Below are positions 55,942 to 60,153 of a stretch of DNA of 64,000 bases, in pieces; position 1 is the stretch's first letter; every line of letters begins with the position of its first letter. The position numbers and the translations under genes were made by a program. The notes below the pieces were generated by a model. That model was not told where the DNA came from and did no database searches. It was given only the letters and a program-made list of their open reading frames with translations. Source of the stretch: Hyphomicrobium methylovorum (GTDB taxonomy: Bacteria; Pseudomonadota; Alphaproteobacteria; Rhizobiales; Hyphomicrobiaceae); contig NZ_QHJE01000001.1 in assembly GCF_013626205.1 (NCBI RefSeq), positions 620,001-684,000 on the forward strand, read 5' to 3'.

Positions 55942-55967
55942 GGAAACAATCGCCGCTGCGGGACGTT
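55942..55967 (+). promoter_or_regulatory. EcfG-like promoter, one mismatch
   Basis: GGAAA (55942-55946) and CGTT (55964-55967) are separated by 17 bases, close to the alphaproteobacterial EcfG consensus GGAAC-N16/17-CGTT. It lies 54 bases upstream of the His-rich protein gene. Confidence 0.5.
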
Positions 55968-56021
55968 TATCCGATCAACAGCATAGGCCGTCACTGGCCT
56001 CTGCTTTCGATAGGAGATTCA

Positions 56022-56315
56022 ATGAGAAACTCACTCATCCCGTTAGCGGCTGTTGCCGCAGCATTTTCGTTAGCGACCGCCATTCCTCCGGCTGAAGCAG
56101 CGCCGCGCCATCATGGTCATCACGCGTATGGGCATCATGGCGGAGGCGGCCACTATCACGGTCAGAGGTATAGCCATCGAGGCTACCATCGTGGCCGCGG
56201 ATATTGGCGAGACGGACGTTGGATCGCGCTCGGTATTGGCGCGGCCATCGCAGCCGGAGCGGCGGGTGCTTACCGCGACTGCTACTATGAAGACGGCTAT
56301 CGCTACTGCGATTAA
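56022..56315 (+). CDS. secreted His/Gly-rich protein
   Basis: This 97-residue protein has a signal peptide (to about residue 27, PPAEA). A His/Gly/Tyr/Arg-rich stretch follows (HHGHHAYGHHGGGGHYHG...YSHRGYHRGRGYW), then a short hydrophobic segment (about 69-82) and the tail YRDCYYEDGYRYCD with two Cys. Such His-rich proteins can bind metals such as Ni, Zn or Cu. AGGAG precedes the ATG and a near-EcfG promoter lies upstream. The function is inferred only. Confidence 0.7.
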   Translation: MRNSLIPLAAVAAAFSLATAIPPAEAAPRHHGHHAYGHHGGGGHYHGQRYSHRGYHRGRGYWRDGRWIALGIGAAIAAGAAGAYRDCYYEDGYRYCD

Positions 56316-56626
56316 AGCGATCTAACAGATTTAAATCGAGCGTTTCGGCCTTCATGGGCCGGAGCGCTTATTTATTGCCGTCGCGAGGTTATCCACAAAG
56401 GTTTTATAGACATTGCGAAACTCTCTTCGCGATCTCCGGGTTCGACTAGTGCACCCCTTGCGATCGGTATTGCGTCATACGGGGATGCAAGTGGTGAAGG
56501 CGTCCCGGCATGAGTTCCGCCGGGACGTCTCGCGCAATCGGAACCGCAATTCTTGATTTGGATGTGAGGGTTGCGCGTCGGACGCGATGCCAACGTCTAG
56601 CAACCTACGGACATCAGTGAGCCGAA
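56316..56626. other. 311-base intergenic region with two hairpins
   Basis: No gene is evident. AGCGTTTCGGCC...GGGCCGGAGCGCTT (about 56338-56371) could be a terminator for the His-rich gene, with a T-rich tail. CGTCCCGGC / GCCGGGACG (56501-56527) is a perfect 9-bp stem with no U-tract. Confidence 0.5.
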
Positions 56627-56878
56627 TTAAATTGGAAGCTCTGCTTCGCGCTCCGTCCAATAGAGATCAGCGAGCCGATCGAGCAGAATGTCTGGCAACG
56701 GGTGATCGATGAGGCCCGTCTGCAAATAGTTTTCTGCGCGAATGACGTCTGCAGACGGCAATAGGATCTTCGTTTTATTGTCGAGTAGAGCCTCTTCGCG
56801 CACGTTGACGGTCGGAATGGAAAATGCAGCCCGCCTCATAGCCTCCGACCAAATCCAAAACGCCATCCAGGGATGCAT
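56627..56878 (-). CDS. small cytoplasmic protein, unknown function
   Basis: This 83-residue protein (MHPWMAFWIWSEAMRRAAFS...LLDRLADLYWTEREAELPI) starts behind TTGGAG. The aromatic-rich start and helical C-terminus look like a folded small protein. A GGAAC-N17-CATT element lies upstream on the minus strand (56923-56948), a weak EcfG match. I do not recognise the family. Confidence 0.5.
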   Translation of the reverse strand: MHPWMAFWIWSEAMRRAAFSIPTVNVREEALLDNKTKILLPSADVIRAENYLQTGLIDHPLPDILLDRLADLYWTEREAELPI

Positions 56879-57062
56879 TGCTCAATTCTCCAAATTCGGT
56901 CGATGACCGAATGCACCATACCAATGCGATGTGACGTTTCTGAGTTCCGCTATTTTATCGCGGCAAAAAGGGCAGAAACGGCCGTAACATGCGTGGAAGA
57001 TGGCCTAAGCAAATGAACAAATTGAAAATCGGTTTGTATATTGAACGACGGTTTTAAAACGC

Positions 57063-57248
57063 TCACGCTCCCGTCTTCTTCTTCGGCACCTTTTTGCCGG
57101 CGCGGCGTGCTTCCGAAAGCCCGATCGCAAGGGCCTGCTTTTTACTCGTGACTTTGCGTCCGCTGCTCGATCGCAACGTTCCCTTCTTTCGTTCATGCAT
57201 GGCGCGTCCAACTTTTTTGGAAGCGGCTTTGGAATATTTCCGGGGCAT
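57063..57248 (-). CDS. DUF6496-like small basic protein
   Basis: This 61-residue protein (MPRKYSKAASKKVGRAMHER...KKQALAIGLSEARRAGKKVP) matches the DUF6496 pattern, a very basic small family found in soil bacteria. It is rich in Lys, Arg and Ser with a central SSSGRKVTSKKQALAIGLSEAR motif, suggesting nucleic-acid or membrane contact under stress. GAGG precedes the start. An EcfG-like promoter on the minus strand (57283-57307) is just upstream, divergent from the CsbD promoter. Confidence 0.8.
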   Translation of the reverse strand: MPRKYSKAASKKVGRAMHERKKGTLRSSSGRKVTSKKQALAIGLSEARRAGKKVPKKKTGA

Positions 57249-57282
57249 GTGAACACCTCAGTTGGAAAATGACTGCAAAACC

Positions 57283-57307
57283 AACAGCGACATTTTCAAT
57301 TGGTTCC
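57283..57307 (-). promoter_or_regulatory. EcfG-like promoter of the DUF6496 gene
   Basis: On the minus strand GGAAC (57303-57307) and TGTT (57283-57286) are 16 bases apart; the -10 differs by one base from CGTT. It lies 34 bases upstream of the start codon and is divergent from the CsbD gene promoter. Confidence 0.6.
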
Positions 57308-57341
57308 GTCGAAAATCACATTCGCAGCGCGCAAAGTACGC

Positions 57342-57367
57342 GGAACCGTCCGGCGATCGCGAACGTT
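57342..57367 (+). promoter_or_regulatory. EcfG-type promoter of the CsbD gene
   Basis: GGAAC (57342-57346), 17 bases, then CGTT (57364-57367): an exact match to the general stress sigma factor consensus of alphaproteobacteria. It is 42 bases upstream of the CsbD start codon. Confidence 0.75.
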
Positions 57368-57409
57368 TCTGAGGCACACCACATGAGCCACAGCACAAGG
57401 AGGTTCGGA

Positions 57410-57607
57410 ATGAATTGGGATCGCATCGAAGGTAACTGGAAACAGTTCTCCGGTAAGGTCAAAGAGAAGTGGGGTGAACTCACCGACGACGAACTGACGA
57501 AGATCAATGGTAACCGTGAGCAGCTCGAAGGTGTTCTTCAGCAGCGTTATGGCTATGCTAAGGATAAGGCTAAGGACGAAGTCGATCGCTGGTCGAACGG
57601 CCTCTAA
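57410..57607 (+). CDS. CsbD-family stress protein
   Basis: This 65-residue protein (MNWDRIEGNWKQFSGKVKEK...QRYGYAKDKAKDEVDRW) is a typical CsbD family member, a small hydrophilic protein induced under general stress in many bacteria. The ATG at 57410 follows a near-perfect AAGGAGG. An exact EcfG-type promoter lies upstream and a hairpin terminator follows. The molecular function of CsbD proteins is unknown. Confidence 0.95.
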   Translation: MNWDRIEGNWKQFSGKVKEKWGELTDDELTKINGNREQLEGVLQQRYGYAKDKAKDEVDRWSNGL

Positions 57608-57634
57608 GGTTTCTGTCCGGTTTTGAAATGAGAG

Positions 57635-57659
57635 AGGCTCCTTCGGGAGCCTTTCTTTT
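57635..57659 (+). terminator. intrinsic terminator after the CsbD gene
   Basis: AGGCTCC and GGAGCCT pair around a TTCG tetraloop, followed by TTCTTTTG, 27 bases after the stop codon. Confidence 0.85.
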
Positions 57660-57732
57660 GTGGTCAGACCCGAAATGCCTCACCTCTACCTGCGCGAATC
57701 TTGCTAACGCGGGATTGGGTGGGGGTTTTGCA

Positions 57733-58098
57733 ATGACAAAGAAGTTCTTTGCAGAAATGTTGGTGAGCTCGAAACATGATCGAGCAACGTCGCGGCTGGA
57801 GCTTTGTCTGACCGACGCACACGGAAATCGGCAGGCTCTCAGTCTTAGTCCAGAAGCACTCGCGGGCCTCGCAGCGGCGCTGCAAGCTCTCCCGGTAAGC
57901 GCTGCTTCCCACACTGGATTGACCAAAATGCCCGACAGTTTTTCAGTTGGGCGCGGTCGGCACGAGTCTGTCGTTCTGGTGCGTTTCGAAGACGACACAC
58001 CTTATGGTCTCTCTGCCGCTCAAGCTGCTGAGCTGGGCGAAGCGTTGCTTGAAGAAGCAGAGACGACTGCGGATGCACAGTACGATCTCCGTCACTAG
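57733..58098 (+). CDS. small hypothetical protein
   Basis: This 121-residue cytoplasmic protein (MTKKFFAEMLVSSKHDRATS...VLVRFEDDTPYGLSAAQAAELGEALLEEA) looks like a compact alpha/beta fold. There is only a weak ribosome site, so the start is uncertain. No family is recognised. It lies in the stress-gene cluster after the CsbD terminator, with no visible EcfG element of its own. Confidence 0.55.
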   Translation: MTKKFFAEMLVSSKHDRATSRLELCLTDAHGNRQALSLSPEALAGLAAALQALPVSAASHTGLTKMPDSFSVGRGRHESVVLVRFEDDTPYGLSAAQAAELGEALLEEAETTADAQYDLRH

Positions 58099-58104
58099 CG
58101 CAAG

Positions 58105-58263
58105 TTACTTCCGCACCGGCTTTTCGTTCGGCTGTGGGGGATCATCGAGAGGAATTGGCTTCGGTTGCGGCGGCTCTTTGGGCTCCGGCGGCAACGGTGG
58201 GAGTTCGCCCGGATCCTTATTGGGAGGGGGCGTTTGCGCGGGATCGTTCGTTCCATTTGTCAT
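58105..58263 (-). CDS. 52-residue proline-rich protein
   Basis: This frame encodes a Pro-rich protein (MTNGTNDPAQTPPPNKDPGE, then repeated PP, PEPKEPP, PKPIPLDDPP blocks). About a third of the residues are Pro, with Glu, Asp and Lys. No ribosome site is visible, yet a perfect EcfG-type promoter (58272-58296) ends eight bases before the ATG, which would give a leaderless mRNA. Small Pro-rich proteins like this occur in rhizobial relatives, but I cannot name a family. Confidence 0.6.
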   Translation of the reverse strand: MTNGTNDPAQTPPPNKDPGELPPLPPEPKEPPQPKPIPLDDPPQPNEKPVRK

Positions 58264-58271
58264 GGATCACG

Positions 58272-58296
58272 AACGCCCGGTTTGCTCTACGGTTCC
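58272..58296 (-). promoter_or_regulatory. EcfG-type promoter of the Pro-rich gene
   Basis: On the minus strand GGAAC (58292-58296), 16 bases, then CGTT (58272-58275): an exact match. The start codon follows eight bases after the -10, so the transcript would start at or next to the ATG. Confidence 0.7.
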
Positions 58297-58311
58297 GCGA
58301 GGCTGAAGCTA

Positions 58312-58482
58312 TCACTCACGGGCGTCCCGGTCTCTCGCGGCGATCATTGCGGCGGTCGCAGCGGCTTCGCGCTCGCTTCTTCGGGAACGCGGACGCTCTT
58401 GCGTAAGAGATGCGTACAACAGCGCAATCGCGACAACCAATGTGCCGCCAAGCACCAGTATCATCGTGAGCGTATTACTCAT
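58312..58482 (-). CDS. 56-residue single-TM protein
   Basis: This protein (MSNTLTMILVLGGTLVVAIA...) has one hydrophobic helix (about 5-24), followed by a charged Arg/Glu/Ala-rich tail (RSRRSEREAAATAAMIAARD). Its start overlaps the end of the upstream 79-residue gene by eight bases, so the two are coupled. I do not recognise the family. Confidence 0.55.
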   Translation of the reverse strand: MSNTLTMILVLGGTLVVAIALLYASLTQERPRSRRSEREAAATAAMIAARDRDARE

Positions 58483-58714
58483 CTTCCATGATCCGCTGCT
58501 GTGCCAACGATTCGTCACTTAGCGACGTTCGTGCAGGGCGCTCATGCTCCATTCCGTCGTCACTATAGGATTGGAAAAGTTCGGCTCGCCCATCGCCAGG
58601 CGAATGAGAGTGCGATCCACCATCAGCTCGCACGCGGCTCAAGGTGGAAATGAACACAAGACTCGCAACGACTGCCGCCGTCGTGAGTGTTACCGCTGTT
58701 GCAAACGCGCTCAC
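58475..58714 (-). CDS. 79-residue single-TM or secreted protein
   Basis: This protein has an N-terminal hydrophobic segment (FATAVTLTTAAVVASLVFISTL) and a polar C-terminal part with Ser, His, Gly and Glu (DGGSHSHSPGDGRAELFQSYSDDG). The start is a GTG at 58714 behind a strong AAGGAGG. An EcfG-like promoter (58736-58760) lies 22 bases upstream. It overlaps the next gene by eight bases. The function is unknown. Confidence 0.6.
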   Translation of the reverse strand: MSAFATAVTLTTAAVVASLVFISTLSRVRADGGSHSHSPGDGRAELFQSYSDDGMEHERPARTSLSDESLAQQRIMEDE

Positions 58715-58735
58715 CGAAATCCTCCTTCAAGGAAG

Positions 58736-58760
58736 AACCGGCTTTATGTGCGGTAGTTCC
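58736..58760 (-). promoter_or_regulatory. EcfG-like promoter of the two-gene TM unit
   Basis: On the minus strand GGAAC (58756-58760), 16 bases, then GGTT (58736-58739), one base different from CGTT. It lies 22 bases upstream of the GTG start at 58714. Confidence 0.6.
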
Positions 58761-58925
58761 CGGGATTTTTCGGACGGTTCAGCGGTTACGCACCCGCTAT
58801 GCCAAAAGACATAGGCCGCATAGTCATTGGCCATCTCCATGCTCGCAACCGACGACGTGTTGCAGCACACTCAGAGGTGTCGGGTCGTCCGCTTCAGCGG
58901 CCCGGCAATCTCCTAGCTAGCCTCG

Positions 58926-58958
58926 CCCCGACGGCCACCGCCGTCGGGGTATTCTTTT
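58926..58958 (+). terminator. strong intrinsic terminator without an upstream protein gene
   Basis: CCCCGACGGC and GCCGTCGGGG form a perfect ten-pair stem with a CACC loop, followed by TATTCTTTT. No plus-strand protein gene precedes it, so it may end a small RNA. Confidence 0.75.
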
Positions 58959-59162
58959 GGAAATCCGTGCATTTGCGCGTGCAAATTCCGCGGCGTGTGA
59001 CTGGATTTCGCGAGCAAACGCGATCATCTCCCGCGACCACTTCAATGGGTCTGAGCGAGTTCTCGGAGAGTGTTCACGTAGGTTTGCAAAGCTGGCAAAG
59101 ACTACAAGTCAATTCGCTTTCTAAGCATACGTCGCATGGTTTCAGCGGCGTTTTCTATGCTG

Positions 59163-59405
59163 CTATTTCGCGAACCACAAATTTAGTTCAGACGCCCATG
59201 CCATTGATCCAATGTTGGATGTGGTAACTGGCATGTCGCGTTCGATGCGATAGGCGTAGGGAAACCCGCGACAATATTCGGTGCCGGCCTTTTCCGCCTC
59301 TTCGCGCGTTTCAAACTTGCCGATGGCCTCGGTGCCTCCGCCAAAACAGCCTTCTTCGTCGTCCTGGCACGCTTTGCACCAGACGACCACACGAAATGGT
59401 CCCAT
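59163..59405 (-). CDS. 80-residue Cys-containing hypothetical protein
   Basis: This protein (MGPFRVVVWCKACQDDEEGC...FGGGTEAIGKFETREEAEKA) has CxxC (Cys10, Cys13) plus Cys20 and a later Cys, suggesting a small metal or disulfide site, followed by the helix-turn phrase FETREEAEKAGTEYCRGF. The ATG at 59405 follows GGGGAC; the longer upstream frame lacks a better start. The family is not recognised. Confidence 0.55.
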   Translation of the reverse strand: MGPFRVVVWCKACQDDEEGCFGGGTEAIGKFETREEAEKAGTEYCRGFPYAYRIERDMPVTTSNIGSMAWASELNLWFAK

Positions 59406-59602
59406 CACGTCCCCGCTAAACGATGTCGGCGAGCCGCCCTGTAGCCGCGTCTCGTCGAACCACACGCAGCAGAATGCCGACACGCGGTTCGACTCTGATG
59501 TCATTGCCGGAATGGGGCCAAGTTGCGACGCACAATGAGATCGTGATTCATGTTGCAGCGCGTTTCCGTCAGCTTCCAGAAACGTCACAAACGAGTAATT
59601 GG

Positions 59603-59628
59603 GGAACTCGACCTGTTGTGTTGCCGTT
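59603..59628 (+). promoter_or_regulatory. EcfG-type promoter of the 66-residue gene
   Basis: GGAAC (59603-59607), 17 bases, then CGTT (59625-59628): an exact match, 28 bases upstream of the start codon at 59657. Confidence 0.75.
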
Positions 59629-59656: not shown

Positions 59657-59857
59657 ATGCGGAATAAAACGGTGTCTCACGTCTACGACGTCTTGAAGGC
59701 GGTCTATGAACTCGAGAAGGAGTTGAAGACCTCTCCCACGCTTGATGAAGCCAATCGCATCGATTGCTCAGAGCATCTGCGTCAGGCGCGTCGGCAGCTC
59801 CACGAAGTTCTCGACGAAGTATATTCTTCGGACTTCCGTGATCGGCACGCAGCTTAA
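59657..59857 (+). CDS. 66-residue helical protein
   Basis: This charged, helical protein (MRNKTVSHVYDVLKAVYELE...EHLRQARRQLHEVLDEVYSS) starts behind GGGAG and directly after an exact EcfG-type promoter. It is followed 14 bases later by another short helical protein gene, probably in one transcript. I do not recognise the family. Confidence 0.65.
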   Translation: MRNKTVSHVYDVLKAVYELEKELKTSPTLDEANRIDCSEHLRQARRQLHEVLDEVYSSDFRDRHAA

Positions 59858-59871
59858 GAACGGCGGTTCCA

Positions 59872-60153
59872 GTGGCTCACGATCCCAACACACTCATAAC
59901 TGGCTGTTTGACACGTCTCGATCGCATTGAGGCGTCTGTGGCTCGCCTGCAAAAGGCGCACGCTATGCGCCTGAGCAATCCGCGTGGTGAACGTGCCTTC
60001 AATGAGATCCGCTTGGCCAAGGCGGCGATTGAAGCGGAGTGTCAGGTGATCAAGCTGAAGCTGACCGAGCTTCGCAGTCAATCAACTGGCGACGAGCAAC
60101 GAGAAAAGTTGAAACGTCGGCAAGACATTGCGGCTCGCCTTTCCGCTTCGTAA
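59872..60153 (+). CDS. 93-residue helical protein
   Basis: This helical protein starts with a GTG (MAHDPNTLITGCLTRLDRIE...RLQKAHAMRLSNPRGERAFN) behind GGCGG. It is coiled-coil-like (KAAIEAECQVIKLKLTELRSQ). It follows the 66-residue gene by 14 bases and is likely cotranscribed from the same stress promoter. The function is unknown. Confidence 0.55.
   Translation: MAHDPNTLITGCLTRLDRIEASVARLQKAHAMRLSNPRGERAFNEIRLAKAAIEAECQVIKLKLTELRSQSTGDEQREKLKRRQDIAARLSAS

Follow-up and report, generated by a model that had tools for sequence, protein, structure and literature searches.

We analyzed a stretch of Hyphomicrobium methylovorum DNA of 64,000 nucleotides (bases 620001-684000 of the main contig, C1, of genome G000, which totals 3.445 Mb), hereafter called the window. 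Near its end lies a cluster of small genes, many of them preceded by sequences of the form GGAAC-N16/17-CGTT, the promoter type of EcfG, the sigma factor of the alphaproteobacterial general stress response. An earlier sequence-only reading of this DNA had proposed that the cluster is a general-stress micro-island of mostly undescribed small proteins. The genes and elements are as follows, with positions counted from the first base of the window.

55942..55967, plus strand: EcfG-like site with one mismatch (-35 box GAAAC, -10 box CGTT), 54 bp before the His-rich gene
56022..56315, plus strand: His-rich protein, 97 residues; homologues in relatives' loci L060 and L066
56627..56878, minus strand: p83, an 83-residue protein; its family shows a likeness to the second half of NepR
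56923..56948, minus strand: EcfG-like site before p83, GGAAC-N17-CATT
57063..57248, minus strand: DUF6496 protein, 61 residues (PF20106, 73.1 bits against a curated cut-off of 24)
57283..57307, minus strand: EcfG-like site, GGAAC-N16-TGTT, 34 bp before the DUF6496 gene
57342..57367, plus strand: exact EcfG site, 42 bp before the start of csbD
57410..57607, plus strand: CsbD-like stress protein, 65 residues (PF05532, 83.6 bits against a curated cut-off of 40)
57733..58098, plus strand: p121, a conserved neighbour with no EcfG-like site, used as an internal negative control
58105..58263, minus strand: Pro-rich protein, 52 residues; homologues in 11 other genomes
58272..58296, minus strand: exact EcfG site, 8 bp before the start codon of the Pro-rich gene, a leaderless-type arrangement
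58312..58482, minus strand: TM1, a 56-residue membrane-type small protein; homologues in L055, L056, L063 and L068
58506..58531, minus strand: EcfG-like site before TM1, CGAAC-N17-CGTT, one mismatch
58475..58714, minus strand: TM2, a 79-residue open reading frame with a GTG start that overlaps TM1; the least certain of the island's genes, and one that the gene caller did not pick up
58736..58760, minus strand: EcfG-like site, GGAAC-N16-GGTT, 21 bp before TM2
58795..58956, plus strand: conserved non-coding element containing a GC-rich hairpin that resembles a terminator, a candidate small RNA, with no clear EcfG site
59163..59405, minus strand: open reading frame p80, no site
59603..59628, plus strand: exact EcfG site, 28 bp before p66
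59657..59857, plus strand: p66, a 66-residue protein with no significant Pfam family
59872..60153, plus strand: p93, starting 14 bp after p66, with no site of its own

EcfG-type sites in the island

The motif GGAAC-N16/17-CGTT was scored, and one mismatch was counted as a near match. The three exact sites named in the sequence-only reading were found in place (57342-57367, plus strand, N17; 58272-58296, minus strand, N16; 59603-59628, plus strand, N17), as were its near matches with one mismatch each before the DUF6496 gene (57283-57307, minus), TM2 (58736-58760, minus) and the His-rich gene (55942-55967, plus). The distances of 8-54 bases to the start codons that it had given agree with those listed above, and all six proteins behind these sites are shorter than 100 residues. 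Its list was correct as far as it went; it had overlooked the one-mismatch sites before p83 (56923-56948), a gene that it did not mention, and before TM1 (58506-58531). At the mean density of the genome, 0.078 exact sites would be expected in 3,687 bp, so that the presence of three or more was, as had been supposed, improbable by chance (Poisson P = 7.5e-5). The proteins were also rightly called mostly undescribed: among the island genes only CsbD and DUF6496 reached a curated Pfam cut-off, the His-rich protein had no match in Pfam or NCBIfam, and no significant Pfam family of their own was found for p66, p83, TM1, the Pro-rich protein or C8, a family described below.

Next to the genes of other regions, the excess of sites was large. 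Among automatically called genes between 55900 and 59900, seven of nine had, within 80 bp, a site that was exact or one mismatch off, compared with 6 of 326 genes in 16 stretches of 20 kb taken at round coordinates of the same genome (Fisher P = 6.8e-10). A hand-made list of ten genes, TM2 among them, gave 8/10 against 6/313 (P = 4.9e-11). No EcfG-like site was seen before p121 or p80 inside the interval, the three genes directly downstream (p93, p126 and EF) had no site with one mismatch or fewer within 80 bp, and the remainder of the window contained such a site before 1 of its 52 genes.

Distribution of the motif in the genome

The whole genome contains 73 exact motifs (48 with N16 and 25 with N17), and the reversed pattern occurs 82 times (43 and 39). 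The bare count is uninformative because the reversed pattern is equally common, and the position of a site relative to genes is needed; raw density was therefore dropped as a test. The genome scan suggested in the sequence-only reading thus gave a divided answer, the motif itself not being enriched and its intergenic placement being clearly so. When the 73 sites were classed with a purpose-built simple gene caller, 43 were intergenic, against an intergenic share of 16.4% in a 504-kb sample of the genome, for which the caller settings differed slightly (binomial P = 2.6e-16), and after 31 of the 43 a called start on the same strand followed within 150 bp. The sample consisted of the window, one of its flanks (L078), the 16 round-coordinate stretches and five stretches picked around sites or nepR genes (L073-L077), a choice that, with the window given, favours the real motif. 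It contained 14 intergenic upstream sites with spacers of 16 and 17 taken together and none with spacers of 15 or 18, whereas 150 permuted motifs gave 0.36 such sites on average and 3 at most.

Three intergenic exact sites within 3.7 kb were found at only two places in the whole genome, the island and a phyR-nepR-ecfG locus, so that an equal density of sites elsewhere in non-coding DNA, which would have spoken against the micro-island, was not seen. A second cluster was noted at G000:C1:104762-114373 (L075), where five exact intergenic EcfG sites occur in 9.6 kb. By the look of their sequences, we take the genes that follow these sites to be those of an NRAMP-type transporter, a LigD-type ligase and Ku.

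Conservation of the sites in relatives

The island was compared with 18 loci of relatives, 16 from the same genus and two from other genera of the family (L070 and L072). A called start lay within 150 bp of 56 of the 69 exact sites in these loci. The counts for CsbD, p66, p83 and TM1 include the window, and 200 permuted motifs served as controls. Upstream of csbD, the site was exact in 17 of 18 genomes and had one mismatch in the last, while no permuted motif was exact in more than 2. The p66 site was exact in 5 of 12 genomes and within one mismatch in all 12, six of the seven non-exact ones having a GGTT -10 box (permuted exact maximum 1). For p83 no site was exact (0/15), and 14 of 15 had at most one mismatch (permuted exact maximum 1). 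The TM1 gene followed an exact site in three of four cases, the window's copy being the fourth (permuted exact maximum 1). In these four families the sites recur before orthologous starts while the spacers diverge. Other families of the 18 loci also had exact sites, namely a PRC-barrel protein (7/7, with one permuted motif reaching 5), the Pro-rich secreted-type family C10 (7/10) and C8 (7/11).

The Pro-rich gene gave no tblastn match in the relatives' loci, where the copy in L057 was overlooked; this copy was found in the genome-wide search. In 10 of 11 relatives the gene lies outside the island. Its 12 copies, the window's own included, had 6 exact and 5 one-mismatch sites (11/12, a count made without a permuted control). 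In five species the site is 8-9 bp before the ATG, which leaves no room for a ribosome-binding site, and in six others it is at least 55 bp away; in the four species other than the window's that have the 8-9 bp arrangement, the GGAAC box was accompanied by -10 boxes with one mismatch.

Named genomes scanned with the p66 alignment yielded seven loci, of which five carry the title Hyphomicrobium (H. facile DSM 1565 being one of them) and the other two only that of Proteobacteria. The order p66-p93 is kept in L057, L060 and L066, and p93 is probably co-transcribed with p66. A p66 paralogue with 29% identity was found at C1:3403.7 kb (L126 3893-4159), likewise after an exact EcfG site.

The data for the remaining genes were sparser. 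For the His-rich gene two orthologues were found; their -35 boxes read GCAAC and lie 99 and 52 bp from the called starts. No tblastn match to DUF6496 was obtained in the 18 loci, and it was therefore sought genome-wide, which placed it in 3 of 36 genomes at E ≤ 0.001, its own included; a second copy, located at C1:861 kb, comes with an exact site that overlaps another called gene and stands outside the 43 intergenic ones. The TM2 site rests on one genome because TM2 had no homologue in the relatives' loci at E up to 1e-3.

Two neighbours are not claimed as targets. None of 17 p121 orthologues had a site with one mismatch or fewer before the called start, and the best match before 57733 in the window has four mismatches; p121 is not regarded as a member of a csbD operon either, since a hairpin with a T-run, read by eye at 57631-57661, separates the two genes. 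For p126, 6 of 14 orthologues had a one-mismatch site, a number equalled by a permuted motif.

Several observations weigh against reading these sites as a set of EcfG promoters. Five of the eight island sites carry a mismatch, and the His-rich, DUF6496 and TM2 genes have few or no orthologous sites. When one mismatch was allowed, the best permuted motifs reached 10/18 for CsbD, 8/12 for p66, 11/15 for p83, 4 for TM1 and 6/14 for p126, with means of only 0.2-0.6 for the CsbD, p66, p83 and TM1 sets and of 0.4-0.6 for those of CsbD, p66, p83 and p126. Single exact matches are often due to chance, because 30 of the 73 in the genome were not intergenic; all five exact sites in the 16 round-coordinate stretches were classed as non-intergenic, although one of them is still 30 bp before a start. 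When 43 sites were placed uniformly on the genome, 1.6% of the simulations produced a triple within 2.3 kb at some place. With boxes as short as GGAAC and CGTT, 4 kb rich in non-coding DNA will give some well-placed matches, so the cluster might have arisen by chance; the raw count below that of the reversed pattern and the many non-intergenic matches fit such an origin. However, the proportion of island genes with sites against that of the background, the conservation of exact sites across species against the permuted controls, and the sites before the relocated Pro-rich genes largely contradict chance clustering, which we consider extremely improbable.

The stress-switch genes and a probable EcfG regulon

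The genome carries nepR-ecfG-phyR sets at C1:2260.9 kb (L074) and 3229.4 kb (L073). In both, a NepR gene above the Pfam cut-off is followed by an extracytoplasmic function (ECF) sigma factor gene, with a PhyR gene adjoining; the sigma genes were labelled EcfG by their ECF domain and their place beside nepR. One of the two loci has divergent exact sites, before nepR-ecfG and before phyR. In genome G009, csbD was seen within 5 kb of nepR-ecfG-phyR (L071 4002-8804, with ecfG and phyR named from sequence). The same 5 kb contains a small open reading frame (L071 8210-8437) with an exact EcfG site upstream; it appears NepR-like as a single sequence with E 0.5, and it had no Pfam match.

The excess of sites, their conservation in relatives and the presence of PhyR, NepR and EcfG genes argue for a general-stress micro-island, and the island is very probably an EcfG regulon cluster of Hyphomicrobium; the NepR-like proteins treated below are not covered by this assessment. 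In studied relatives, phosphorylated PhyR binds NepR and thereby releases EcfG (PMC8103513). By analogy, EcfG would use the sites of the island and the partner switch would work as it does there: under stress, phosphorylated PhyR would sequester NepR, and the freed EcfG would fire mostly single-gene promoters for CsbD and several other very small proteins.

The promoter-like sites resemble the promoters of described EcfG regulons. The EcfG consensus reported for Methylobacterium extorquens is GAAC-N16,17-C/GGTT (PMC4814048), and in Sphingopyxis granuli the commonest -35 boxes are given as GGAAC and GCAAC and the -10 boxes as CGTT, TGTT, CATT and GGTT (PMC7083833). The account of S. granuli also lists csbD as EcfG-dependent (PMC7083833). 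For Sphingomonas melonis, the targets described include a PRC-barrel protein and many hypothetical proteins, and sites 2-10 bp from start codons are among those listed (PMC6599016). The regulons of these three species share promoter architecture and spacing with the island, that of S. granuli shares csbD as a target, and that of S. melonis shares the PRC-barrel protein. Unlike in these regulons, several of the putative Hyphomicrobium targets stand side by side, in one island common to many species. An EcfG regulon is of a known kind; new here are the genus-wide clustering, the families of small proteins and the members that may be NepR-like.

Some of the sites, that of p83 above all, could instead belong to a different ECF sigma factor, one that uses a similar -35 box. 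Most p83 orthologues have GAAAC rather than GGAAC, and GAAAC-N16/17-CGTT was found upstream of 11 of 14 of them, compared with 2 of 350 other genes of the 18 loci. However, the p83 site reads GGAAC-N17-CATT in the window's genome, L057 and L060, the CATT -10 box also occurs among the EcfG promoters described for S. granuli (PMC7083833), and the neighbouring genes have the canonical form. A second sigma factor is therefore judged unlikely, and EcfG is preferred for the p83 site as well.

NepR likeness of p83 and C8

The p83 family was scanned against 24,736 Pfam models, and NepR was the sole match (3 of 8 members, best E 0.016). When an alignment of 29 NepR sequences was compared by hhalign with 18 families of the loci, C8 reached 82% and p83 50%, and the other 16 families at most 0.9%. 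For p83 and for C8 alike, none of 300 column-shuffled NepR profiles reached the real score. In a search of 860 called proteins with the NepR profile, the three true NepR proteins ranked at the top, followed by six p83 or C8 proteins (E 0.001-0.03). Within p83 only the PxPD helix region of NepR is kept, and its conserved N-terminus has two invariant Trp residues. The family occurs in 15 of 22 genomes of the same genus, its own included, and was not found in the other 149 genomes of an order-level sample whose listing has one other genome of the genus.

C8, a neighbour of p83 in related species, was identified in 13 of 21 relatives of the same genus. A search of 60 genomes with its profile gave 34 matches; these included the NepR gene of G039 (E 0.0016) as well as a place within an open frame of 1451 residues in G025 (E 1.5e-4). 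Promoters were examined for 18 of the 34 matches, the G025 and G039 loci and the matches without a returned locus being left out. An exact EcfG site preceded all nine island-type copies (RDIDDWMFHF), which makes 9/18 of all those examined, and permuted motifs gave at most 1; of the other nine copies, two had one mismatch and seven had two or more. A second C8 subfamily (HDDW/HEDW) was seen in L207, L208, L209, L210 and L215, with no EcfG-like site up to two mismatches, and four of its five copies are within 1.5 kb of csbD.

Two small feedback proteins in studied relatives offer a comparison. NepR2 of S. melonis is described as a protein under EcfG control that binds PhyR and feeds back negatively on the response, and in which L31 and F35 matter (PMC6599016), and MexAM1_META2p0735 of M. 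extorquens as a small EcfG-driven NepR-like protein that binds PhyR and lowers the response (PMC4814048). Among 11 C8 sequences, L22 is invariant and F26 nearly so, and in the hhalign register to NepR they correspond to L31 and F35 of NepR2, as numbered in PMC6599016. C8 thus shares with these two proteins the L-K/R-x-x-F pattern and an EcfG-type promoter; unlike them, C8 and p83 remain under the Pfam NepR cut-off.

For p83 in particular, and for C8 in part, a number of results count against a relationship to NepR. The window's own p83 had no Pfam match, and it stood at E = 0.64 in the NepR profile search, below an unrelated protein at 0.28. The best p83 locus of the genome search scored 15.9 bits, under the curated cut-off of 25.7 bits for NepR (PF18557). 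Only NepR columns 23-45 align with p83, which lacks the LRxxY/F contact motif for PhyR, and its AlphaFold model was uninformative (mean predicted local distance difference test score 57). None of 11 C8 members had a Pfam match, PF18557 included, and the search for C8 found no copy of it in the genome of the window.

The two families might also be helical proteins unrelated to NepR that resemble it through convergence. The 23 aligned columns of p83 and the missing Pfam match of C8 would fit convergence, as would the failure of the p83 and C8 profiles to match each other (0.7%) and the C8 match in the G025 frame, which indicates that weak matches are not all NepR. On the other side stand the shuffled profiles, the low scores of the 16 other families of the same loci, the match of the C8 profile to the G039 NepR gene, and the Leu and Phe that C8 keeps, in the hhalign register, at positions important in S. 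melonis NepR2. We give convergence an appreciable chance, though one short of even. Taken as relatives of NepR, p83 may be, and C8 more clearly may be, proteins that damp the response as S. melonis NepR2 does, a suggestion much less certain than the EcfG regulon. For the window's own p83, which aligns to the second half of NepR only, NepR likeness is put forward as a hypothesis.

A candidate RNA element

The non-coding element at 58795..58956 occurs at the same place in L057, L060 and L066, and hence in four species with the window. Its folding z-score was -5.66, and covariation was seen in only 1 of 19 consensus pairs. It matched no Rfam family; its covariance model recovered the four source species and gave two weak matches near E = 0.006. 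No upstream EcfG site is common to the four species, the best having 2, 3, 1 and 3 mismatches, with L060 alone at one. Like the small RNA GsrN of Caulobacter, as described in PMC5869019, the candidate lies inside a general stress response island, the sequences of the two not having been compared; unlike GsrN, it has no EcfG site shared among its species. A GsrN-like identity was rejected, given the lack of a shared site upstream and of an Rfam family.

Meaning for the general stress response of Hyphomicrobium

The island may be a self-limiting stress module, in which EcfG would switch on CsbD and the unnamed small proteins and, along with these, p83 and C8 as NepR-like brakes on itself. Effector output and feedback would then lie side by side and vary between species, and the candidate small RNA would add a post-transcriptional arm in one group of four of them. 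We offer this picture tentatively, as possible but on the unlikely side.

Through the EcfG regulon cluster itself, the known range of the alphaproteobacterial general stress response comes to include Hyphomicrobium, where the regulon can be tested; in a literature search judged by titles, no paper devoted to the general stress response in this genus was found. It also gives a common regulatory context to small-protein families without a Pfam name, namely p66, the Pro-rich protein, TM1, p83 and C8. Should p83 and C8 prove to bind PhyR or EcfG, this would mean that feedback proteins of the NepR type are spread more widely, and have diverged further, than can be seen with the Pfam model.

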